This document shows positions 3,600 to 16,716 of a stretch of DNA of 29,082 bases, piece after piece. The DNA comes from a virus. The DNA lies in the IMG/VR virus record IMGVR_UViG_3300044609_001857, positions 1 to 29,082 of that record; one strand, written 5' to 3'. The notes below the pieces were generated by a model that saw nothing but the letters and a program-made list of their open reading frames with translations, was not told the origin of the DNA and ran no database searches. The translations under genes were made by a program, and so were the position numbers. How positions within the stretch are numbered: the stretch's first letter is position 1; the number at the start of each line of letters is the position of its first letter.

Positions 3600-4241
3600 T
3601 CAGAAGTTGGGGAGTTCATCGTCATCGAGGTCGGCAAAATAGGCTTCCTCGTCGCTGAACAACGTGGGCTTGGAGCGCAGGAAATCGGGTCGCGCATCGC
3701 GCACGGGCATGAAGTGGAGGTTGCTCGCCATCATCCCACGGAAGTGCCGCCAATTGCCGAAGAGTTCGGTGAAGTCGCGATCGAAGAACACATAGCGGCC
3801 TGGCAGTTTGTGGAGGGAATCCATGCCGCAGAGATCGACCAGCGAGGCAGCCACACGCGTGTCGGAAAGCAGCCCGTCGGGCATCCGGTGCTTGGGCATG
3901 CGGCGCAGGGTTTCGCGCCATTGGCACCAAGTGCCGTTGTGGAAGAGCACCGCGCGGGCGTGGCCGGTGAGGCGGGTGGACGCGCGGGCTGATATCGGGA
4001 ATGGATGGCAGAGTTTGGGAGTCACCTCCCCCACGCTCGCCCATCGAAAGTGGATGATGATTTCGCCGGGCAGATCACCAATCAGGCGTTCGACCTCATC
4101 CGGATCGAGGCCTTTGCTCCATCGCACCTCGCCATTTTCCCGCCATGCCACACCGGCACCGTGGGGGTTGGCAGCGTGGCAGGCGTCGATGGTTGCGCGG
4201 TCTGGGCGCACGTTCTCTGGGCATACAAGGATCACACACAT
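3600..4241 (-). CDS. Class II glutamine amidotransferase-like (Ntn-hydrolase)
   Basis: A 213-residue protein whose second residue is Cys (MCVILVC). That Cys would become the N-terminal nucleophile after Met removal, as in class II glutamine amidotransferases. Other visible family signs are NPHGAGVAW (25-33), HFRWASVG (64-71, the HxRxAxxG block), CHPFP (78-82) and LFHNGTW (99-105). There is no attached synthetase or isomerase domain. The protein probably cleaves an amide (glutamine or a related gamma-glutamyl bond) and passes on ammonia, or hydrolyses or remodels a peptide amide. The gene starts 14 bp after the amidoligase gene, and this pairing is known from phages and fits one reaction path. 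The C-terminal 70 residues (FLRSKPTLFSDEEAYFADLDDDELPNF) are acidic and unassigned. Confidence 0.85.
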   Translation of the reverse strand: MCVILVCPENVRPDRATIDACHAANPHGAGVAWRENGEVRWSKGLDPDEVERLIGDLPGEIIIHFRWASVGEVTPKLCHPFPISARASTRLTGHARAVLFHNGTWCQWRETLRRMPKHRMPDGLLSDTRVAASLVDLCGMDSLHKLPGRYVFFDRDFTELFGNWRHFRGMMASNLHFMPVRDARPDFLRSKPTLFSDEEAYFADLDDDELPNF

Positions 4242-4255
4242 GGCAGTCGGAGGGA

Positions 4256-5200
4256 TCAGAGGTTGGCGAAGGGAAAGCGGGCGTCGAAGCGGCGGCAGAG
4301 CCGTTGGGCAATGTTGCGGTAGGCATCGAATTCCGAATGGAGCGGACCGATGAGACCAAGTGCAACTGGCCGCTTACTGCCGGTCCACCCGAGGTAATCC
4401 CAAAGGTAGATCAGTGCGTCTTTGGCGGTGGCCGTGCGTTTCGCTTGGGTCTTGTTCTTCTTGAATGAACCAAGGCAATCCACCTCGGCGGCCCGGCGGC
4501 AAAGCCCCAACACCGTGGCAAGGTGGTGAAGAAGTTTTTGGCGGTTGAGCGTGCCGGCAAAGACCCGGAATTCGATCACTCCGTGGGTGAAGAGTTTTTG
4601 GAAGTTGATCATTCCCCTGCCGCACTCGCGTGCAGCGCTTAACTTGCGCTTGGGGTCCTTGCGGCGGTGCATCTGGCGAACCAATTTCCCCACATCATCT
4701 CCGAGCATGTGGCTATAGCGGTTGAGGTGGCGGCCAGTGCCCGTTTGGCCATAGAGGCTCATGGCGTGCCAGCGGGTGATGTGAGCCAGCTTGCGGGCAA
4801 AGTCGCTCATCGCTTGCAGGTCTTCGGTGCCAATGATGGAGGCGACGCCCACGGTGATGTGGCAACCGCACGACGCGTTGACGTTGGCACCGATGGCATT
4901 GGCCCATTCGACGAATTCAATGAGGTGTTGCACTCCATCACTGCCACTGAGGATGGGTGAAACAAATTCGCATGCCGTACGGTCGGCACGGGCACGAATG
5001 GATCCATCGCGTTCAGCCCGCCAACACTCGCCATTGAATGTGGGCGCGTTGAGGGGCGCGGTGGATCCGGTGGCAACACCAGCTCTTACACTGATGCCGT
5101 TGTGGTAATTTCCGACCACCACGCCGGAGAGCACGGGGATGGTGGTTTCGAGTTCAACTCCGAAGGTAATGGCTTCGGCCTTCTTATCTGATGGTTTCAT
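4256..5200 (-). CDS. Amidoligase family protein (COOH-NH2 ligase)
   Basis: A 314-residue protein with the amidoligase (PF12224-type, glutamine-synthetase-like fold) signature blocks in order. FGVELET is at 13-19 (metal/ATP-binding glutamates). A WRAERDGSI...CEFVSPIL segment corresponds to 'W....D.S...E.VSP.L'. CGCHITVG carries the central His, and IEFRVFAGT the E.R pair near residue 210. Enzymes of this group use ATP to join a carboxylate to an amine. Their targets include peptides, small metabolites and, by proposal, modified nucleic acid or cell-surface groups. The gene follows a leader repeated in front of the ligase operon (5215-5336) and is directly followed by the GATase. Start ATG 5200 lacks a clear Shine-Dalgarno of its own, but the AGGAGG of the leader lies about 45 bp upstream. 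Family fairly secure, substrate unknown. Confidence 0.85.
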   Translation of the reverse strand: MKPSDKKAEAITFGVELETTIPVLSGVVVGNYHNGISVRAGVATGSTAPLNAPTFNGECWRAERDGSIRARADRTACEFVSPILSGSDGVQHLIEFVEWANAIGANVNASCGCHITVGVASIIGTEDLQAMSDFARKLAHITRWHAMSLYGQTGTGRHLNRYSHMLGDDVGKLVRQMHRRKDPKRKLSAARECGRGMINFQKLFTHGVIEFRVFAGTLNRQKLLHHLATVLGLCRRAAEVDCLGSFKKNKTQAKRTATAKDALIYLWDYLGWTGSKRPVALGLIGPLHSEFDAYRNIAQRLCRRFDARFPFANL

Positions 5201-5345: not shown

Positions 5346-6233
5346 TCAGGCGCTCATGTCCCAAGTTTCGCGGAAGCCGATGAACTTCGGAAACCGTGGC
5401 GCTTCTTTGGCACCGCTGGGCTGGTGGCTGAACTTCACCACGCGGCCAATCAGATCATCCTTGCGCATCCAGAGCGTGATACGGTCGATCCCGCCGATGA
5501 CATGGTTGTAGCCCAAGCGGAATTCGACGCCAGTGAATAGGTGGCGCACTACGAAGCCGCCAAGTTCGCCGCGACCGATCATGCCTGCCTGGCTCATGCT
5601 TCGCTTCGTACGGCCGAAGGCATCAAGTTCCGCTGCGTTCTGGTTGCTCATGCCCTCGTATGTGGACAACACGACGGCCTCCGCATCCTCGAAGCGTTTG
5701 ATCTTGAGCAACCATGCCTCGCGATCAGTGGACCGCCCGCATTTGTAGGGTGAATCCAGCGTGCGGACCATCACGCCCTCGTATCCGGCAGCGATGCACT
5801 CTTCCTCGTATGCGACCAGTTCGGCGACGTTGTGGATGAGGGTCGGCAGCACTTTCACGATGCACACCCAATTCGGCAGGGCGGCAAGTTGGTTCATTCT
5901 CTCCACATAGGGCGTGGTGACTGAATCGGCAACGTAGTCAAAGACATGGAAGACAAAATCCGGCTGACCATCACGGGCGCCGATGGCACTGGTGGTTTGA
6001 TTGAAGGTGCCGTCGCGTAGCATGAGTTCACCGTCCACACCATCGGGCAGGTTGGCCTCGATCCACTCGCGCACGAAGCGGTTGGAGATTGGCTTGAATG
6101 AGCGTGTCAGCGCTTTGCCACCGACCTTCAGACAACGAATGCCGTCGAGTTTTGGCGTGGCAAGCACGGGGAATGGAAGTTGGTCGGGCCGCTCGCACTT
6201 GCTGGCGAGCATCGGCTTGGTGATCGCGTTCAT
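5346..6233 (-). CDS. Minimal ATP-dependent DNA ligase
   Basis: A 295-residue phage-type ligase. Motif I KLDGIR (28-33) supplies the lysine that is adenylated. FVFHVFDYV is motif III, EGVMVR motif IV and WLLKIKRF motif V. The C-terminal part (about 200-295) has the length of an OB-fold domain. There are no accessory DNA-binding or nuclease domains, as in T7-like ligases. It seals nicks in duplex DNA during replication or repair. I prefer the ATG at 6233 because MNAITKPMLASK matches the usual 'KPMLA' opening. A TTG at 6260 overlapping the previous stop (TTGA) would add nine residues and would couple it to the upstream gene. It lies between two copies of the leader, with the amidoligase operon downstream. 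Confidence 0.88.
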   Translation of the reverse strand: MNAITKPMLASKCERPDQLPFPVLATPKLDGIRCLKVGGKALTRSFKPISNRFVREWIEANLPDGVDGELMLRDGTFNQTTSAIGARDGQPDFVFHVFDYVADSVTTPYVERMNQLAALPNWVCIVKVLPTLIHNVAELVAYEEECIAAGYEGVMVRTLDSPYKCGRSTDREAWLLKIKRFEDAEAVVLSTYEGMSNQNAAELDAFGRTKRSMSQAGMIGRGELGGFVVRHLFTGVEFRLGYNHVIGGIDRITLWMRKDDLIGRVVKFSHQPSGAKEAPRFPKFIGFRETWDMSA

Positions 6234-8138: not shown

Positions 8139-8696
8139 TTAGGAATCAATGAGGTTGTCGAACAGGCCGGGAATGAAGGGCGCTAGGGCGTCTTGCTCCT
8201 GGCGGAAAAACTCGGCTTTGGTTTTGCCCATCCTACGGCCCTGCGGCGTGTGGCAGTCATATGCGTAGTCGGGTATGGGAACGTATTGACCCGCCTGTTC
8301 GAGTTCGTCGGTCAGCGTGGAAGCATCAAGCCCGGCCTGCTGGTCATAGACGAAGTTTTGAAGATGGTCGGCATCGCGGCTCTTCTTGGCCATGCAGAGA
8401 AGGATGATCGCTTTGGATATGAAGATGCGCCCCTTGGGTTTTCCTTTGGGCACATGCTGATTGATCTCGGTGTAGCTGTCGTGCAGGGCCTTTGTTTCCG
8501 CCGTGAGGATTCCCCAGCAGTCTTCTGCGCTCACAGTGAGCAAGCGCCGCCAGACATACTGACCAAATCCACTGGCCCAAAGTTCAAGTGCCCAGTAGCC
8601 GGCAAGTTTGGCATCGCCGCGCCGAATGGCTTTCTGCATGGCGCTGGAAACCGCTGGGAATGAATATCCGCGTATGGTGTTGAGGTGATAACTCAT
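8139..8696 (-). CDS. Stand-alone MgsA/RarA C-terminal-like protein
   Basis: A 185-residue protein whose first half (GYSFPAVSSAMQKAIRRGDAKLAGYWALELWASGFGQYVWRRLLTVSAEDCWG) matches the C-terminal helical domain of the RarA/MgsA clamp-loader-like ATPases. In those enzymes 'S..QKAIR.GD...A..W..EL...G...Y..RRL...A.ED.G' forms the tetramerisation and replication-fork contact region. The AAA+ ATPase part is missing. Conserved late blocks include PIPDYAYDCHTPQGRRMGKT. Free-standing versions occur on plasmids and phages and probably act with DNA replication or repair, perhaps by replacing or blocking host RarA. ATG 8696 is preceded by a 57-bp gap after the glycosyltransferase gene. Confidence 0.75.
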   Translation of the reverse strand: MSYHLNTIRGYSFPAVSSAMQKAIRRGDAKLAGYWALELWASGFGQYVWRRLLTVSAEDCWGILTAETKALHDSYTEINQHVPKGKPKGRIFISKAIILLCMAKKSRDADHLQNFVYDQQAGLDASTLTDELEQAGQYVPIPDYAYDCHTPQGRRMGKTKAEFFRQEQDALAPFIPGLFDNLIDS

Positions 8697-8753: not shown

Positions 8754-9545
8754 TCAGACCTTCACTGATTGGCGGCGTGGTGCGTCCATCGAAACGCGGT
8801 CCTGGCTCTTGTAGTTTTCGAGGCGGATGTGGGCCTTCCATTTGCGCTTGAGGTAGCGCTTCTCGGTGGCAATGCGTTCCTCACTGCGAAACAAGCTGTT
8901 GCCCCCAAGGTTCTTGTCGCGCTCTTGCACGAAACAGAACCTCGCTTCGTTCCAGACAAGGCGGTTGTCCATCAACTCCTGGAGCGTGGCATCGATGTCG
9001 CACTTGCACTTGAGAAGCTCGTCCCACTTCGGTACGCCGCCATTCTCATCGCGCACCACACCCACAGCCCCGCCGACCCAATGGTTCACGCCAAACGGAT
9101 CATTGCGTTGAAGGAGCCTGGGATCGCTTCGTTGGTGCCAGCCAAACAAACGGGCCCCTGCCCCACGCGCTGACCATGCCGAGTTCTCGATCATCGCTTG
9201 GGTTTCTTCGATCGACAGTTTTCTACACCTGAGGCTGACCATGCAGACGCAGGCTGAAATGTCATCGTCGAGCATGACGATCGCATCATCAGTGAAGTGT
9301 TTCAAAACCCAGTTCCTCACCGCGCTGATGCCGGCAATCTCATCGGGAATGGTTTCAATCTCCAACCCGGTGTGGGCGTAATGTTCAGCTTCGCTTGCGG
9401 GAACCAGCAGCGTTGCCGTGGGAAACAACTTGTGGCTCGTGATCGAGCGGCTCCGGCTTCGGCTTAGAATCAAGAGCCTGAGTTTCAGCGGGCGCAATTC
9501 CGGCCATGCTGGCACGGCGGCAGAGTTCGAGGAGTCGTTTTCCAT
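8754..9545 (-). CDS. TAGT-like glycosyltransferase (GT-A fold)
   Basis: A 263-residue protein (start ATG 9545). It has the opening LRLLILSRSRSRSIT, then LVPASEAEHY, IPDEIAGISAVRNWVLKHF and a VMLDDDIS acidic triad at 93-95. This order matches the TET/JBP-associated glycosyltransferases (TAGT) of phages, in which the DDD binds metal and sugar nucleotide. A later GVNHWVGGAVGVV and DIDATLQELMDNRLVW fit acceptor and catalytic loops. Known relatives are thought to glycosylate hydroxymethylated bases in DNA. No TET/JBP oxygenase or hydroxymethylase is in the window. The first 160 bp overlap the ParB-like gene out of frame, so the two are coupled. An earlier ATG (9599) lies deeper in ParB and would add low-complexity residues. 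Confidence 0.75.
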   Translation of the reverse strand: MENDSSNSAAVPAWPELRPLKLRLLILSRSRSRSITSHKLFPTATLLVPASEAEHYAHTGLEIETIPDEIAGISAVRNWVLKHFTDDAIVMLDDDISACVCMVSLRCRKLSIEETQAMIENSAWSARGAGARLFGWHQRSDPRLLQRNDPFGVNHWVGGAVGVVRDENGGVPKWDELLKCKCDIDATLQELMDNRLVWNEARFCFVQERDKNLGGNSLFRSEERIATEKRYLKRKWKAHIRLENYKSQDRVSMDAPRRQSVKV

Positions 9546-10164
9546 GGATAACACGGCCGAGGCCGATTTTTTTGGTTCTGCGGGTGATGGAGTAGTCAAC
9601 CTCTCCCACCCCCATCAGTTGGAGTGCCTGCATCCAGTCACGCAGGTCGTGGAACATGAAGACGAGGTAGTCGTGGTGTTCGAACGCCTGGCATTCCATG
9701 CGTGGAATCATTTCCATTTCGTCCTCCGGGTTGGCGGCTTCGTCCATGAGCTTGCGGATCTCATCGTCCATGAATCCGGTGAGCTCGAGGTCGAAGCTTG
9801 GATCGGATTCGCCAATCGATTTGAGAACCCGGCGCAATTCGTCCTCATCGAGTTCGGCCAATTCCGACAGGCGGTTGTCGGCCAGAAGATCGGCAAGCTC
9901 CTCCGCCTCACTTGCATAGTCCTGCTCATCCACTGGGATTGTTTCGCACCCAATCAAAAGTGCGGCCTCCAAGCGGCCATGCCCCCGAACAATCAGCCCG
10001 GAGCGCTTGGATACGGTGACGGGATTGCGCCACCCCTGCTCCTGGATGATCGACGCGAGAAGTTGGATTTGGTGGGCGCTGTGGCGGTTCGGGTTAACCG
10101 GGTTGGGTTTCAGCGTGTTGGGATCAAGGAGGCGAGTGTGGGCGCAATGCACGGGAATGCTCAT
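9385..10164 (-). CDS. ParB-like nuclease-fold protein
   Basis: A 259-residue protein. Residues 10-100 form a ParB/sulfiredoxin-fold domain: LKPNPVNPNRHS, ASIIQEQGWRNPVTVS, and LIVRGHGRLEAALLIG with the GHGR motif. An acidic helix (EEAEELADLLADNRLSELAELDEDELRRVL) follows. After that comes a second part with EHHDYLVFMFHDLRDWMQALQLMG and VDYSITRRTKKIGLGRVIHGKRLLE, a C-terminal extension seen in phage ParB-like proteins. No methyltransferase is fused to it. Phage proteins of this kind often sit with DNA-modification genes and may direct or gate modification. ATG 10164 is preceded by TTGACG with a 14-nt gap. It is the first gene of the leftward set and its end overlaps the glycosyltransferase by about 160 bp. 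Confidence 0.85.
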   Translation of the reverse strand: MSIPVHCAHTRLLDPNTLKPNPVNPNRHSAHQIQLLASIIQEQGWRNPVTVSKRSGLIVRGHGRLEAALLIGCETIPVDEQDYASEAEELADLLADNRLSELAELDEDELRRVLKSIGESDPSFDLELTGFMDDEIRKLMDEAANPEDEMEMIPRMECQAFEHHDYLVFMFHDLRDWMQALQLMGVGEVDYSITRRTKKIGLGRVIHGKRLLELCRRASMAGIAPAETQALDSKPKPEPLDHEPQVVSHGNAAGSRKRS

Positions 10165-10618: not shown

Positions 10619-11224
10619 ATGGATGCCGTTTCCCCTGACATTGCCAAAAAGCTCCTTTCTCGCGACTTCGCCAACCTGATTGGCAGGGTCCAGAAAGGCG
10701 GCAAGCTGACTCGTACAGAACGCGCCATGCTGCAATCCATGGCCACTGGCAGCGGAGCGGCCCCAAGCACTGCATCCAGCTATGTGGAACTTGCTGCCGT
10801 GCTGGGCGTGACACGCCAGTCGATCAATACATGGAAAAAACGCAAGGACTCGCCAAAGCCAGCCTCCAACGGCATGCATGATGTGTCGGAGTGGAAGGAG
10901 TTCATGCGTCAAAACGAACTCAAGGGTGGCGAGCCACTCACTCAAGATGGCGCCGACATCGAAACATCGCTCAAGGCAAGGAAGCTGCTCGCTGAGGTGG
11001 AAGAGCGGGAATTGCGCGTAGGAATCAAGCGCGGTGACTATGTGGCGGTGGAGGAAGTTCGCCAGACATGGACGGAATTCGTTGCGCAGGCAAAAGCCAT
11101 GCTTCGCAAGAAATTCGAGCAGGAACTCCCGCCGATCCTATCGGGCCTCGACGCCACCGGCATCCAGGAGGAATCACGGCGGGCCATCGATGAAGTTTTG
11201 TCCATCCTGCACCAAGGCGAATGA
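10619..11224 (+). CDS. Terminase small subunit (Nu1-like)
   Basis: A 201-residue protein. A helix-turn-helix around residues 55-75 (SYVELAAVLGVTRQSINTWKKR) would recognise the packaging site. It is followed by a linker and a long charged helix (about 110-190) with KARKLLAEVEERELRVGIKRGDYV, the usual dimerisation and large-subunit-binding region. Its length and order match Nu1-type subunits. The start ATG 10619 lies 16 nt after a TTGACG element. The stop overlaps the large-subunit ATG (ATGA), so the pair is translationally coupled. Confidence 0.9.
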   Translation: MDAVSPDIAKKLLSRDFANLIGRVQKGGKLTRTERAMLQSMATGSGAAPSTASSYVELAAVLGVTRQSINTWKKRKDSPKPASNGMHDVSEWKEFMRQNELKGGEPLTQDGADIETSLKARKLLAEVEERELRVGIKRGDYVAVEEVRQTWTEFVAQAKAMLRKKFEQELPPILSGLDATGIQEESRRAIDEVLSILHQGE

Positions 11225-13044
11225 AATCAGTCGAACCGGCACACTCGAAGTTGCGAGGGATCTGGCGTGATGCATGGCGTCCACCAGATCGCCGCCCCCC
11301 ATGGGCGTGGTGTGAGGACCACATTTCCTCCATTCCCTATTCACCGATTCCCGGTCGTTTCCGCTCGGCCAACTCACCATGGATGCGTGAGCCGATGGAG
11401 GCGCTGGTGGATCCAAAAATTCGAATCGTGAGCATCATCGCTGCCATTCAGAGCGGTAAAACCAGCGTTGGGGAATTCGGCCTTGCCCACATCATCGCCA
11501 ACCATCCGGGGCCAACGCTGTGGCTCGATCAAACCGATGACGATGCCAAGGACCAGAGTGAAAGCAGGCTCCAGAAGCTCTTTGACGAATGCCAGCCGGT
11601 GAAATCCCTCTACCCGGCCAACCGCCACAAAAGGAGGCTTTCGACAATCCACTTCAACAACGGCATGACGCTCTGGGTGTTGGGGGCGCACAACAAGACC
11701 AACCTCCAACGCCGCTCGATCCGTTGGCTTATTTGCGATGAAACATGGCGATACCCGCAGGGGCACATGACCGAGGCCGAAGCCCGCGTCACCGCATTTG
11801 GCTGGCTTGGCAAGTGCCTCTTCATGAGCCAAGGCGGAGAGGAAGACGACGACACCCACCGCAAGTTTGAAACCACCGACATGCGCGAGTGGACATTTGC
11901 TTGCCCGCATTGCCATCACCGACAGCCGTGGAAATGGGAGCAAATCGAATGGAGCAAGGACGCACGCGACGAATCAGGCGAGTGGGATTTCCAAAAAGTG
12001 CGCGAAACCACATCGATGCGATGCGAATCGTGCAACCACTACTTCGAGGATAGCGATAGGTCGCGTCGTGAACTCAACCTCACCGGGAAGTATGTGGCGA
12101 CAAACCCCAACGCCACGAAGGAAAATGCCGGGTTCCATTGGAATGCCCTATGCGCCATGAGCTGGGGCCGCTTGGCCGAACTTTATCTCCGGGCCAAAGC
12201 TGCTGCCAGACGGGGTGATGTGAGCCTCATCCAGCAGTTCTATCAAAAGCGTCTTGCCCTCGCATGGCGGGAATACCTCGAGGACTACAAGCTCGACATC
12301 GTGCCGGGCGGCTACCTCAAAGGTGAGTCATGGGATGGCGAGGCCGGCGTGGATGCGCATGGGCGCTTGGTGCCGTCAGGACAAACATCAGCCTGCCCAT
12401 TGCGGATCCTCACCGTGGACTGCCAAATGGACCACATGTTTCTCGTCGTTCGGGCATGGGCCGAGGATGGATCAAGCCGCCTGATTTGGGACGAGCGTGT
12501 GCTTACCTACACCGATGTCGCCAGCGTCCAGGAGAGATTCGGCGTTCATCCCAACCTGGTTTTCATTGATGCCGGATATGCCACCTACGATGTCTACCGC
12601 GAATGCGCATCACATGGATGGACCGCACTCATGGGCGACAAGCGGGCGACATTCACGCACAAGGTGAAAGGCCGCAAGTCGATCGAACGCTTTTATTCAC
12701 CTCGCCGCAAAGTGGTCCTCGGCCGCGGACAGAGCTGCTCGGTGTTTTATTGGAGCAACCTCAACATCAAGGACACGCTTGCCCGACTTCGCCGCAATCA
12801 AAACCCGGACAATGGCCCGGTCTGGGAGGTGCCAGACGACATCGATGAAGAATACCTCGCCCAAATGGAAAGCGAACACCGCATCAAAAAAAGCGGCAAA
12901 TGGATGTGGGAGCGGATCGGATCAAGGCCAAACCACCTGTTTGACTGCGAGGCCATGCAGGTAGCAGCCGCCACCATGCTCAAGATCGTGGGAAGAGAGT
13001 CACAATCTTCCGTTCAATCCAACCCACCCGAAGACGACGCATAG
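11221..13044 (+). CDS. Terminase large subunit (GpA-like)
   Basis: A 607-residue packaging motor of the lambda GpA type (PF05876). AAIQSGKTS (74-82) is the variant Walker A, and LICDET (170-175) is Walker B with the catalytic glutamate. CPHC/CESC (228-231 and 268-271) form a zinc ribbon between ATPase and nuclease parts. ILTVDCQMDHMFLVV and VFIDAGYATYDVY carry the aspartates of the RNase-H-like nuclease, which cuts the concatemer. The length is normal for the family. A lambda-type cos or similar end-making mechanism is likely. The gene overlaps the small subunit by 4 bp and is followed by a 65-bp gap holding the TTGACA of the next gene. Confidence 0.95.
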   Translation: MKSVEPAHSKLRGIWRDAWRPPDRRPPWAWCEDHISSIPYSPIPGRFRSANSPWMREPMEALVDPKIRIVSIIAAIQSGKTSVGEFGLAHIIANHPGPTLWLDQTDDDAKDQSESRLQKLFDECQPVKSLYPANRHKRRLSTIHFNNGMTLWVLGAHNKTNLQRRSIRWLICDETWRYPQGHMTEAEARVTAFGWLGKCLFMSQGGEEDDDTHRKFETTDMREWTFACPHCHHRQPWKWEQIEWSKDARDESGEWDFQKVRETTSMRCESCNHYFEDSDRSRRELNLTGKYVATNPNATKENAGFHWNALCAMSWGRLAELYLRAKAAARRGDVSLIQQFYQKRLALAWREYLEDYKLDIVPGGYLKGESWDGEAGVDAHGRLVPSGQTSACPLRILTVDCQMDHMFLVVRAWAEDGSSRLIWDERVLTYTDVASVQERFGVHPNLVFIDAGYATYDVYRECASHGWTALMGDKRATFTHKVKGRKSIERFYSPRRKVVLGRGQSCSVFYWSNLNIKDTLARLRRNQNPDNGPVWEVPDDIDEEYLAQMESEHRIKKSGKWMWERIGSRPNHLFDCEAMQVAAATMLKIVGRESQSSVQSNPPEDDA

Positions 13045-13109: not shown

Positions 13110-13370
13110 ATGGCGCGAGGATTATTCGTCACAGGTTTCACCGTAGCGGAGGTGCTCGCCATACAGAGCCGTGCCAAATCGCTCCTGCTGGATGGCAAGA
13201 CGATCATGAGTTGGAACGATTCGGACACCAATGTGACCAAGCAATTCACCATGCCCGTGGACCAAGTGCTGGAGGAATGCGCCCATGCCCTGCGAATCCT
13301 TGATCCATTCGCATATGGCAAATCCCAGCGTGTGGCCGCATCCAGCGTATCCGGATACCTCGCCAAATGA
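13110..13370 (+). CDS. gpW-like head-tail connector protein
   Basis: An 86-residue protein between large terminase and portal, the exact place of gpW in lambda. FTVAEVLAIQSRAKSLLLDGKTIMSWNDSDTNVTKQFTMPVDQVLEECAHALRIL has the helix, beta-hairpin, helix layout of gpW, which binds the portal to complete the head before tail joining. The start ATG 13110 follows TTGACA by 14 nt. Its TGA overlaps the portal ATG (ATGA). It is about 18 residues longer than lambda gpW. Confidence 0.7.
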   Translation: MARGLFVTGFTVAEVLAIQSRAKSLLLDGKTIMSWNDSDTNVTKQFTMPVDQVLEECAHALRILDPFAYGKSQRVAASSVSGYLAK

Positions 13371-14785
13371 GCCGCATCAGATCCATCGCCAAACTCGTCA
13401 TCCCGCCGGTTTTACAACCCAAGGCATGGGGATCGCCCTACGAGGCTGCCAATTGGTCGCCACGCCGTGGATTTGTGCCGGGCGCAATGCCCACCGACGC
13501 TCGCAATGAACTCACACCGGGCGTTCGTACCGAGTTGGTGCGCAAATCCAGGTACCTCCACAAAAACAGCGGATTCGCTCGGGAATTGGTGGCCAACATG
13601 GCGATCTACTCAACTGGCGATGGCATCAGGACCCAAGCACAGTCGCCGGATTCAGGTTGGAACCGCGCAGCCGAGGAATACTTCTCCCTGTGGTCCGCCC
13701 GTTGTGAAGTCACCCGGCGGTTCTCATTTGAGGAATGCCAAGCGCTTGTCTGCCGTGGCATGGACATCGACGGCGAGTATTTCGTACATAAGACACGCAA
13801 CGCACAAGGCGAGCCACGCATCCAATTGATCGAATCACACCGAATTGGCGACCGCCTCGGATCCACCCAAACCGTGGATGGAGTCGGCCTCGATGGCTGG
13901 GGCGCACCGATCTTTTACCGCGCCATCGAAGACAATGGTGACTTTAGGGACCTGCCGTCCGAAGCGGTGCTGCACATTCACGAACCCGAATGGGCCGGCG
14001 GAGTGAGGTGCCATCCAACCATCCAGCATTCCATCAACCACGTGCTCGATGAAATCGAATTGCTCGCCCTTGAAAAACACGCCGTCAAAGACAATGCCGA
14101 TGTGGCGAGGGTGCTTAAAACGGCACGCGGCGAACTCGATGATACGGGTGACTTCGTCGTCGGCGATGGCGCGACCGGCAATGAGCAAAGCGACCCATTG
14201 TCACTGCAGCGAATCGTCGGCGGAAAGCTCGTGGCGCTCAAACCGGATGAATCGATCGAAAGCTTTCAGTCCAACCGCCCGTCCCCCACTTTCACGGGAT
14301 TTTTGGAACACCTCAGAAGGGATTCAGCTCTGGGCGTGATCCCGTTCGAGTTCGCGGCTGACTCAAGCAAGATCGGTGGCGCTGGCGTGAGACTCGTGGT
14401 GGCCAAGGCAGACCGCCGCTTTTCATTCCGACAGATGATTCTCGAGCGCCGCTTGATCAGACCCGTTTGGTCCTATGTGATCGGCGATGCCATCAACCGC
14501 GGACTGCTCCCCCCAATCGAAGGCTGGTGGAAGATTTCCACTGTCCCGCCAAAACGTGTCACCGTGGACGCCGGGCGTGAAGCCCAACAAAACCGCGCCG
14601 ATGTGGAAATGGGTCTCAAAACCTTATCCGACCACTACGCAGAGCTGGGCGCCGACTTCGGCGAGGAAATCGAGCGCAGGGCCGCCGATGCCAAGCTCAT
14701 CCTGGAAACAGCCACGAAATACGATGTGCCGGTGGGCATGCTGTGGAAGGTGGCTGGAGAGGTGCACCAAGTCGCAACTGGTTAA
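13367..14785 (+). CDS. Portal protein (lambda gpB-type)
   Basis: A 472-residue portal of the lambda family (PF05136). Recognisable parts are the N-terminal WSPRRGFVPGA...NELTPGVRTELVRKSRYLHKNSGFARELVANMAIYSTGDGI and HKTRNAQGEPRIQLIESHRIG. The late GVIPFEFAADSSKIGGAGVRLVVAKADRRF is also typical of this family. Twelve copies should form the DNA channel at one vertex of the head. It overlaps the upstream gpW-like gene by 4 bp. In lambda the protease/scaffold gene follows at once. Here a 2-kb toxin-antitoxin cassette comes between. Confidence 0.93.
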   Translation: MSRIRSIAKLVIPPVLQPKAWGSPYEAANWSPRRGFVPGAMPTDARNELTPGVRTELVRKSRYLHKNSGFARELVANMAIYSTGDGIRTQAQSPDSGWNRAAEEYFSLWSARCEVTRRFSFEECQALVCRGMDIDGEYFVHKTRNAQGEPRIQLIESHRIGDRLGSTQTVDGVGLDGWGAPIFYRAIEDNGDFRDLPSEAVLHIHEPEWAGGVRCHPTIQHSINHVLDEIELLALEKHAVKDNADVARVLKTARGELDDTGDFVVGDGATGNEQSDPLSLQRIVGGKLVALKPDESIESFQSNRPSPTFTGFLEHLRRDSALGVIPFEFAADSSKIGGAGVRLVVAKADRRFSFRQMILERRLIRPVWSYVIGDAINRGLLPPIEGWWKISTVPPKRVTVDAGREAQQNRADVEMGLKTLSDHYAELGADFGEEIERRAADAKLILETATKYDVPVGMLWKVAGEVHQVATG

Positions 14786-14907: not shown

Positions 14908-14964
14908 GATACACTCAAAATGAAAAATACACTTGCAAAGTGTATCCAAGAATAATAGTGTATC
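14908..14964. promoter_or_regulatory. Nested palindromic operator of the AbiE-like cassette
   Basis: An inner perfect inverted repeat ATACACTT-GCA-AAGTGTAT (14927-14945) and outer half-sites GATACACT (14908-14915) and AGTGTATC (14957-14964) share exactly the same centre (14936). The half-sites are 18 bp apart on each side. This matches AbiEi-type antitoxins, which bind two inverted repeats cooperatively to repress their own operon. A weak promoter, TTGCAA (14933-14938) with TAGTGT 17 bp later, would lie inside the operator and start transcription almost at the ATG. Confidence 0.7.
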
Positions 14965-14968
14965 CCCA

Positions 14969-15943
14969 ATGAAGCGCACCCTGCCAGCTCTGGTAGAATA
15001 CCTTGAAAAGCTGACCGGCAGCCCCGTGGACCTCGCACCTGCCGAACCTCGGAGTCTGCCTCTTTTCCTGCGTGAACGCTTTCAACTCCACCAAGGAGAC
15101 ATCTTTGGTCGAAGCTTTATCTTCGCCATCGACAGGTGGGGCGAGCAAGACCCATCCGCCGTCAACTACGCCAATCTAACCGAGTGCTTGAGTGGCCATC
15201 TGGGAGATTCAGTCGTTCTGGTCCTACCTGGCCTCGCCCCGCACATTCGCCAAGGCCTCATCCGCTTGGGGCGTCCGTTCATCGTTCCCGGCAGTCAGAC
15301 CTTCCTGCCCACCGCCATTATCGATCTGCGGGAGCGGCAACCTGGCGTACTTCCCACCGCAAAAACACTCAGCCCGGCGGCTCAATGTGTCCTCCTCTAC
15401 CATCTGGAGCGAGAGAGCATCCACCATTGGCCACTGCAAAAGGTGGCCGAAGCCGTCGGCTACTCGCCCAACATGCTCATTAAAGTGAAGCGCGAACTGG
15501 AAGCAGCGGAACTTTGCGATCCCGTGCGCAACGGCCGCGTTGTCACCCTGCGCTTTCATGTCGAGCGTCGGGCACTGTGGCAAAAGGCCCTGCCTTGGCT
15601 GGCCTCGCCGGTCCGCGCCACCCACTGGGTCCGTTGGGAACAACCACCAACGCAAGCCCTCATGGCTGGCATGACAGCACTCAGCCACGCAACGATGATC
15701 GTCGATGACCGCACGCCCGTGTATGCCCTTCATCACAAGGCATCCAAAGACAATGCTTTCGAAATCTGTGCCGACCGCATCGATGCCACGGCCAGACTCG
15801 AAATTTGGAATTACAACCCGCGATTGCTCACCATCCGCGAGGAAATGGTGGATCCCCTTTCGCTCTTTCTCAGCCTGCGACACGATCCAAATGAGCGCGT
15901 TCAGGACCAACTCGAAACACTCATCGAACAATTCCCATGGTAA
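14969..15943 (+). CDS. AbiEi-like antitoxin / autorepressor
   Basis: A 324-residue protein. Its central winged helix (about 145-195: LSPAAQCVLLYHLE...PLQKVAEAVGYSPNMLIKVKRELEAAELC) is of the MarR/AbiEi type. The sequence after it (RRALWQKALPWLASPVRATHWVRW...LMAGMTALSHATMI) follows the pattern of regulators paired with nucleotidyltransferase toxins. I set the start at ATG 14969, because a TTG at 14933 would place coding sequence on the operator. The gene has no Shine-Dalgarno and may be read from a nearly leaderless message. It overlaps the next gene (ATGGTAA), as toxin-antitoxin pairs do. In known AbiE systems the antitoxin neutralises indirectly and represses the operon. It lies within the phage late operon but carries its own control. 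Confidence 0.75.
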   Translation: MKRTLPALVEYLEKLTGSPVDLAPAEPRSLPLFLRERFQLHQGDIFGRSFIFAIDRWGEQDPSAVNYANLTECLSGHLGDSVVLVLPGLAPHIRQGLIRLGRPFIVPGSQTFLPTAIIDLRERQPGVLPTAKTLSPAAQCVLLYHLERESIHHWPLQKVAEAVGYSPNMLIKVKRELEAAELCDPVRNGRVVTLRFHVERRALWQKALPWLASPVRATHWVRWEQPPTQALMAGMTALSHATMIVDDRTPVYALHHKASKDNAFEICADRIDATARLEIWNYNPRLLTIREEMVDPLSLFLSLRHDPNERVQDQLETLIEQFPW

Positions 15944-16716
15944 GAGGACTCGACCTGTTGCGCGAACGCATGAAACCGCATGAGGGCTCCATCGTGTTGA
16001 TCGGTGGTGCGGCCTGCGACGATTGGTTCTCCCGCCAATCACTCCAGTTCCGTGCCACCCAGGATCTGGACATCGTCCTTATCGTGGAGCTGCTCGGTGC
16101 TGGAGCGATCGAAACCCTCCGCCGTTTCATCCGCGATGGCCAATATGAAACTCGCGCCCGCAGCAACGGCAAACCTGAGCTCTACCGCTTTGCCAACCCC
16201 AAAGACCCGCGTTTCCCTAAAGAACTCGAACTGTTTAGTCGTGGACCGGAAAACATCGACCTCGCTCCTGGGGAAACATTGCCGGTCATCACTGATGAGG
16301 ATTATCACAGCCTGTCTGCCATACTTCTGGATGATAGATACTATGAGTTGATTCGCGTTCACCACGACATCCATGATGGACTTCACTTCGCCAACGCCAC
16401 TTCCCTGATCCCACTCAAGGCCTTCGCATGGCTCGACTTGAAGCGCCGCACGGCCGAAGGCGAAAAGATAGATTCACAAAAGATCAAGAAACACCGCGCC
16501 GATGTCTTTCGCCTTGCCGCTACGCTTCCTGCCGAACCGGGCCCCGAATTGGCGGTAGAAATTCGCAAGGACCTTGGCCGCTTCATGCAGGCCTTCCCAC
16601 CGGACTCCACGGATTGGCAAGGCATCCTCGCCGCAGTCAAAGGCACCGTGGGTGTGAACCTGTCCTCCACAGCTCTGCGTGATGCCATTTTCTCTTACTT
16701 CCGCCTAACCGACTAG
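15937..16716 (+). CDS. AbiEii-like nucleotidyltransferase toxin
   Basis: A 259-residue protein with a nucleotidyltransferase-fold signature. IVLIGGAACDDWF (19-31) is followed by RATQDLDIVL (about 40-49), which supplies the DxD metal-binding aspartates, and a third acidic residue is expected later. The wording SLIPLKAFAWLDLKRRTAEG...KKHRADVFRL (about 150-195) is the helical part typical of AbiEii/MNT-like proteins (PF08843-type). Such toxins transfer nucleotides, reported for tRNA or GTP binding, and stop growth on phage infection. ATG 15937 overlaps the antitoxin stop. The gene is followed by a terminator, so the cassette is a closed unit. Confidence 0.75.
   Translation: MVRGLDLLRERMKPHEGSIVLIGGAACDDWFSRQSLQFRATQDLDIVLIVELLGAGAIETLRRFIRDGQYETRARSNGKPELYRFANPKDPRFPKELELFSRGPENIDLAPGETLPVITDEDYHSLSAILLDDRYYELIRVHHDIHDGLHFANATSLIPLKAFAWLDLKRRTAEGEKIDSQKIKKHRADVFRLAATLPAEPGPELAVEIRKDLGRFMQAFPPDSTDWQGILAAVKGTVGVNLSSTALRDAIFSYFRLTD

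Follow-up and report, generated by a model that had tools for sequence, protein, structure and literature searches.

What does a phage glycosyltransferase (GT) modify when its gene follows that of a ParB-like protein beside the terminase genes? The question arises at a locus in IMG/VR record IMGVR_UViG_3300044609_001857, and the window, that is, the whole stretch of DNA that was analysed, is this entire viral record of 29,082 bases. An initial annotation had read the two genes as a candidate DNA hypermodification module, forming a multi-step system together with an amidoligase/GATase pair.

Genomic context of the pair

The window is a Verrucomicrobia prophage contig. Bacterial-type genes, among them an SDR, occupy its left end, and the remainder is a tailed-phage genome that encodes a GpA terminase, a lambda-type portal, an S49 protease and a match to a P22-like coat protein; a tRNA search of the window found none. 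Closely related sequences occur in genome contigs of Akkermansiaceae, Prosthecobacter and Chthoniobacter, and the host is therefore most likely a Verrucomicrobiota bacterium. The features that concern us are as follows.

10164..9385, minus strand: predicted ParB-fold protein, 259 aa (PHROG ParB families, matches to solved ParB/Noc structures, model)
9961..9984, minus strand: ParB P-motif-like stretch GHGRLEAA, residues 61-68 (residue conservation)
9520..9687, minus strand: ParB C-terminal domain, about residues 160-215, NYxVLxF..xDW ... GxGRVxxG (51 sequences)
8754..9545, minus strand: predicted TAGT-family GT-A glycosyltransferase, 263 aa, ATG 9545 (PF20691, phrog_842, model)
9261..9269, minus strand: GT DDD motif, residues 93-95, predicted metal/nucleotide-sugar-binding DxD (invariant, n = 67)
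8991..9005, minus strand: GT K181-x-D183-x-D185 motif (invariant, n = 67)
9385..9545, minus strand: ParB/GT reading-frame overlap, 161 nt (dual coding in the first ~63 nt)
8139..8696, minus strand: MgsA/RarA C-terminal-domain (MgsA_C) protein, 185 aa (PF12002, 31.9 bits)
10619..13044, plus strand: terminase genes, divergent from ParB-GT; small subunit by position, large subunit GpA (Pfam profiles)
3600..5200, minus strand: GATase_6-like and amidoligase_2-like genes, outside the core unit (PF13522, PF12224)

The large terminase subunit scores 142 bits against GpA_ATPase and 79 bits against GpA_nuclease. Further along, a two-gene insertion (14933-16716) separates the portal from the protease genes; among 80 GT-recruited relatives it was seen in one record (L002) only. 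By eye its second gene is nucleotidyltransferase-like (GG..D and DLD motifs), and an AbiE-like identity, also proposed for the two genes by eye, was dropped for want of any Pfam or PADLOC match.

Identity of the glycosyltransferase

The GT had been taken to start at TTG 9599, which is the mechanical start of the open reading frame; relatives conserve ATG 9545 instead, giving a protein of 263 aa. Its reading as a TAGT-type enzyme was borne out by profile comparison: the window protein scores 28.8 bits against Pfam TAGT (PF20691), about 1 bit over the gathering cut-off of 27.5, in an alignment that spans only the N-terminal half of the profile, and matches phrog_842 (beta-glucosyl-HMC-alpha-glucosyltransferase, BGA-GT) over nearly its whole length (E 1.3e-10; residues 41-270 in the numbering of the longer open reading frame). 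We attribute the marginal TAGT score to sequence divergence. Most of the 67 aligned GT sequences are 20-30% identical to the window protein, 65 of them match TAGT and no other Pfam family (E ≤ 0.001; best 3.6e-17), and the GT of Streptococcus phage Javan291 aligns with most of the profile at 63 bits. Seventeen residues are invariant across the 67 sequences, including D93-D94-D95, K181, D183, D185, G214, G215 and R220, and in the predicted model the DDD motif comes after the strand formed by residues 88-93. To judge from these residues, the window GT retains the catalytic signature of a metal-dependent nucleotide-sugar transferase, a DxD with a downstream acidic pair.

The AlphaFold2 model of the GT (pLDDT 84.9, pTM 0.82) finds its best matches among predicted viral structures (BFVD) in proteins named TAGT and BGA-GT (E 2.8e-14 to 1e-9), with generic viral GT2 proteins appearing only from E ~3e-6. 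Among solved structures the model resembles generic GT-A folds, namely ppGalNAc-T2 (Z 14.1, rmsd 3.9, 218 residues), TarP, WrtF and COLGALT1; these neighbours act on peptides or polysaccharides, and the fold therefore does not decide the acceptor. Comparison of the GT profile with the sequences of solved structures gave nothing useful (best E 0.74). Profiles and model together identify the window protein as a predicted TAGT-family glycosyltransferase. The family takes its name from an association with TET oxygenases. A member from T6-like phages has been assigned the role of placing another glucose on already glucosylated cytosine of DNA (PMC13390438).

The ParB protein and its overlap with the glycosyltransferase gene

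The window ParB is sub-threshold against Pfam ParB_N (E 0.0023), matches PHROG ParB families with E down to 3e-33, and, through a profile of its relatives, reaches solved ParB/Noc/Spo0J chains at E 1e-13; the fold matches of its predicted model (pLDDT 80.8) are ParB, Noc and KorB. An N-terminal ParB domain, predicted to bind NTP, is followed by a helical middle, a C-terminal domain of ~60 aa and a Pro-rich tail. The NTP-pocket motifs GHxR and ADN are kept, G61 is invariant among 51 divergent ParB-TAGT partners, and G61, H62, R64, A67 and A68 are common to all four ParBs compared. Sequence and model thus agree in placing the protein, as a prediction, among the ParB-CTPase fold proteins. It falls short of the full partition-protein model TIGR00180 (22.9 bits, cut-off 58.45), and among phage families its ParB domain comes nearest to the one found in DNA methyltransferase fusions (phrog_498, E 2e-37), with a further match to PADLOC MTase_II (E 8e-20). 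According to a survey of the ParB-CTPase fold, members bind CTP, ATP or GTP, and fusions with N6/N4 methyltransferases are frequent in phages (PMC12704722).

The C-terminal domain of ~60 residues is common to TAGT-linked ParBs, in which a Y, a DW and a GRV..G stretch are near-invariant: Y166 and D176 do not vary at all among the 51 sequences, and W177, G203, R204, V205 and G208 hardly do. A Mom-linked ParB is without this domain, which we regard as a candidate interface with the GT.

Codon-position variability in 52 ungapped relatives was used to examine the overlap of the two genes. Ahead of the overlap, variability is concentrated in third positions of ParB (0.23-0.27), and beyond it in third positions of the GT (0.256). 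The first 63 nt of the overlap vary little at all three positions (0.087, 0.088 and 0.059), while the rest tracks the GT frame. This switch of frame, together with the constraint on all three positions over the initial stretch, shows that the overlap truly codes for both proteins and is no product of a wrong gene call. A frameshift-fused ParB-GT was considered as its explanation and rejected: ATG 9545 is conserved and each frame is independently constrained, so that ordinary overlapping genes are the simpler reading.

Conservation of the ParB-glycosyltransferase pair

The order of a ParB gene followed by a TAGT-type GT gene, adjacent on the minus strand, had been noted at the outset, and it proved both real and strongly conserved. 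It is kept in the relatives examined among ~140 viral contigs, and 17 Verrucomicrobia genome contigs encode the GT too. With the Javan291 GT as bait, 80 further divergent viral loci were recovered; of the 66 that extend far enough, 65 have ParB directly upstream of the GT. With ParB as bait, the GT follows in 85/85 loci, although many of the phages had already been recovered with the GT bait and one recruiting scan used a pattern from the ParB C-terminal domain itself. Conservation of the GT exceeds that of the terminase and portal of the same phage. That this is an artefact of recruitment was ruled out by recruiting window relatives through the terminase instead, whereupon the GT was present in all 27 relatives with enough flank and more conserved than TerL in 41 of 41. 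Wherever the contig extends far enough, Verrucomicrobia phages have the order ParB, GT, MgsA_C, and Microbacterium cluster EC phages have ParB, GT, UDP-glucose dehydrogenase, MgsA_C. Across diverse phages, then, ParB and the TAGT GT are encoded as a co-directional pair that is almost obligate and usually adjoins the terminase genes. A literature search, which covered few subscription papers, found no paper describing the pair.

Such regularity bears on the first of the alternative acceptors. It is common for phage GTs to modify the host envelope, and two structural neighbours of the window GT, TarP and WrtF, act on cell-envelope polymers; the GT might accordingly alter the host cell surface, for superinfection exclusion or receptor masking, with its linkage to ParB a matter of operon convenience. 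However, convenience hardly explains pairing in 65/66 and 85/85 loci, no envelope-glycan gene recurs beside the pair, and the GT belongs by profile to TAGT, so that we consider a cell-surface role very improbable.

The terminase-proximal slot points to DNA as the probable acceptor

At least 48 of 60 divergent loci encode TerL no more than 3.5 kb downstream of ParB and the GT. Other phages fill the same terminase-proximal slot differently. Psychrobacter phage pOW20-A and Verrucomicrobia phage P8625, the latter with a GpA terminase of the window's type, have a ParB-methyltransferase protein there; Psychrobacter phage vB_PmaS_Y8A has ParB-Mom, the gene between ParB and the terminase (5578-6231, annotated as hypothetical) encoding a strong member of the Mom family (PF25680, 188 bits). 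Mom and the N6-adenine methyltransferase families modify canonical DNA bases, adenine N6 in the case of Mom. The published description of phage Y8A names another gene, ORF69, as Mom, and its table gives ORF17 without assignment. N6/N4 methyltransferases are present in just 6 of 40 ParB-TAGT records. The sharing of one slot with ParB-methyltransferase and ParB-Mom is our main argument that DNA is the probable acceptor of the GT.

The possible source of a hydroxylated base

O-glycosylation of DNA normally requires a hydroxylated base, and the thymidylate-synthase family takes in the phage dCMP and dUMP hydroxymethylases. The initial annotation had looked to a TET/JBP oxygenase or a hydroxymethylase elsewhere in the element, an expectation that the searches did not uphold. 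No thymidylate-synthase family member was found in 61 records (21 + 40, one being a ParB-Mom phage included for comparison), among them complete Fireman and Javan291 as well as many IMG/VR records that are fragments; the control was positive in nine genomes. TET/JBP went unmatched in 62 viral records, six host genomes and 388 Verrucomicrobiota genomes, a negative that is the weaker of the two because the search never matched in its control. Pfam scans of twenty Javan291 and Fireman proteins, mostly larger unknown ones, returned no oxygenase, and divergent ParB-TAGT loci have no third gene in common besides packaging and structural genes. The thymidylate-synthase-family hydroxymethylase of a T4-type hydroxymethyl-pyrimidine route is thus not found in the ParB-TAGT phage records searched. 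With no TET/JBP or thymidylate-synthase-type maker, as far as these could be searched for, the acceptor would be a canonical base, unless some unrecognised enzyme supplies it.

Two forms of DNA glycosylation follow from this choice. In one, an enzyme of an unrecognised family, from phage or host, hydroxylates the base before the GT acts. To our knowledge, every characterised DNA glycosyltransferase attaches its sugar either to a base with a hydroxyl group or to a sugar already in place, and many genes of these phages are without a family match; even so, the failure to find either known class of maker (the TET/JBP control being silent), the lack of an oxygenase among the scanned Fireman and Javan291 proteins and the lack of a shared third gene all speak against such an enzyme, and we hold this form to be only tentatively possible. 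In the other, the GT glycosylates a canonical, unhydroxylated base directly, for example at an exocyclic amine, as the sugar counterpart of Mom and the adenine methyltransferases; we regard this form as doubtful.

The missing source of a hydroxylated base also fits an acceptor that is not DNA. The GT might glycosylate a phage or host protein, such as a head protein, the terminase or a host defence protein, with ParB as adaptor or regulator, and it is in keeping with this that the unit adjoins packaging and head genes and that the protein O-glycosyltransferases ppGalNAc-T2 and COLGALT1 are among its solved neighbours. Against it, the T6-like member of the GT's own family is assigned to DNA, and ParBs of this type are otherwise tied, in the same slot, to DNA methyltransferases and Mom; a protein acceptor strikes us as rather unlikely.

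Sugar donors and other neighbours

A UDP-glucose dehydrogenase gene sits within the ParB-GT operon of Fireman, and six Verrucomicrobia phage records have a GalE-like epimerase between late and replication genes (13217-14149 in record L105), which was found neither in the window, whose contig may stop short of the region, nor in the Chthoniobacter record. That these enzymes accompany the pair suggests that the phage shapes its own sugar donor, and it may do so in a clade-specific way. In the prophage record of Chthoniobacter flavus (L101; G001 26078-41028), a biosynthetic-looking run of genes lies between the replication and late genes, radical-SAM-like, PLP-enzyme-like and acyl-carrier-like by eye; two of these genes gave no Pfam match.

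The amidoligase and GATase genes are real by Pfam and conserved across Verrucomicrobia phages. Their proposed place in one multi-step system with the GT had to be given up, since neither gene occurs in complete Fireman or Javan291 or in the vicinity of 80 divergent pairs; as genes specific to the Verrucomicrobia phage clade they were rejected as core components. Nothing links them to the GT, and they may have some other role. In an Anaeroplasmataceae phage, NatCom_34063 (L339), an amidoligase gene lies three genes past a ParB-like gene, and co-occurrence of ParB and amidoligase may thus extend beyond the Verrucomicrobia clade.

The window MgsA_C protein is 45% identical to the protein downstream of ParB, GT and UDP-glucose dehydrogenase in Microbacterium phage Fireman. 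MgsA_C joins ParB and the GT as a third component in the Verrucomicrobia and Microbacterium phage clades, and because it is confined to these two it was rejected as a core component. The protein stands alone, without an AAA+ domain; its GenBank label is AAA-ATPase. A 'clamp loader' of SP-15 matches it, with no recognisable glycosylation genes around and a dCMP deaminase following.

Proposed mechanism and significance

The explanation towards which we lean, by a modest measure, is that ParB-TAGT is a core, terminase-linked unit that glycosylates DNA before packaging and serves anti-restriction. Of the DNA-modification module as first proposed, what stands is a conserved ParB-TAGT unit in a neighbourhood that points to DNA modification; the TET/JBP or hydroxymethylase partner and the link to amidoligase/GATase are not supported. 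In the mechanism we propose, the ParB protein would bind both an NTP and DNA, and would use its C-terminal domain, which is specific to this partner, to bring the GT to replicated phage DNA. The GT would then move a sugar from UDP- or another NDP-sugar onto a base, or onto a group on the base, the acceptor being canonical or supplied by an enzyme of unrecognised type and not, as far as the searches reached, a TET/JBP or thymidylate-synthase-type product. Glycosylation would precede packaging and shield the phage genome from restriction.

In these phages TAGT accompanies ParB and the terminase, with no known base hydroxylase found. Should the GT modify DNA, its acceptor must come from a new base-hydroxylating enzyme, or else a normal base must be glycosylated directly; either chemistry, if true, would be new for phage counter-defence and for DNA-labelling tools, and the direct route would amount to DNA glycosylation without a preceding hydroxylation step. 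Because cultured lytic Microbacterium cluster EC phages have the unit, the acceptor question is open to immediate test.

Comparison with known systems

The TAGT family includes the T6-type beta-glucosyl-HMC-alpha-glucosyltransferase, which, like the window GT, is phage-encoded and has the same sequence family and predicted GT-A fold. Unlike the T6-type enzyme, the window-type GT sits by the terminase with ParB, and whereas T-even phages obtain 5-hydroxymethyl-dCMP from a thymidylate-synthase-family enzyme, none was found in ParB-TAGT phages. Phage fusions of ParB with an N6-adenine methyltransferase (phrog_498; the ParB-CTPase-N6N4_MTase of PMC12704722) have the same type of ParB domain in the same terminase-proximal slot; here, by contrast, the GT is a separate protein, and ParB's own C-terminal domain of ~60 aa replaces the methyltransferase. 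ParB-Mom of Psychrobacter phage vB_PmaS_Y8A has the arrangement seen here, ParB, then a DNA-modifying enzyme, then the terminase, with Mom where the window unit has a GT.

TET/JBP-linked hypermodification loci (Iyer et al. 2013) reportedly include ParB and TAGT. Both components are thus common to those loci and to the present unit, although no TET/JBP was found with the pairs examined, in a search without a positive control. The Microbacterium cluster EC phages Fireman and Quhwah differ from the window in having UDP-glucose dehydrogenase and in lacking amidoligase/GATase, and the cluster EC GT, 26% identical to the window GT, falls below the Pfam TAGT cut-off. These lytic, cultured phages nonetheless have ParB, a TAGT-like GT and MgsA_C in common with the window.
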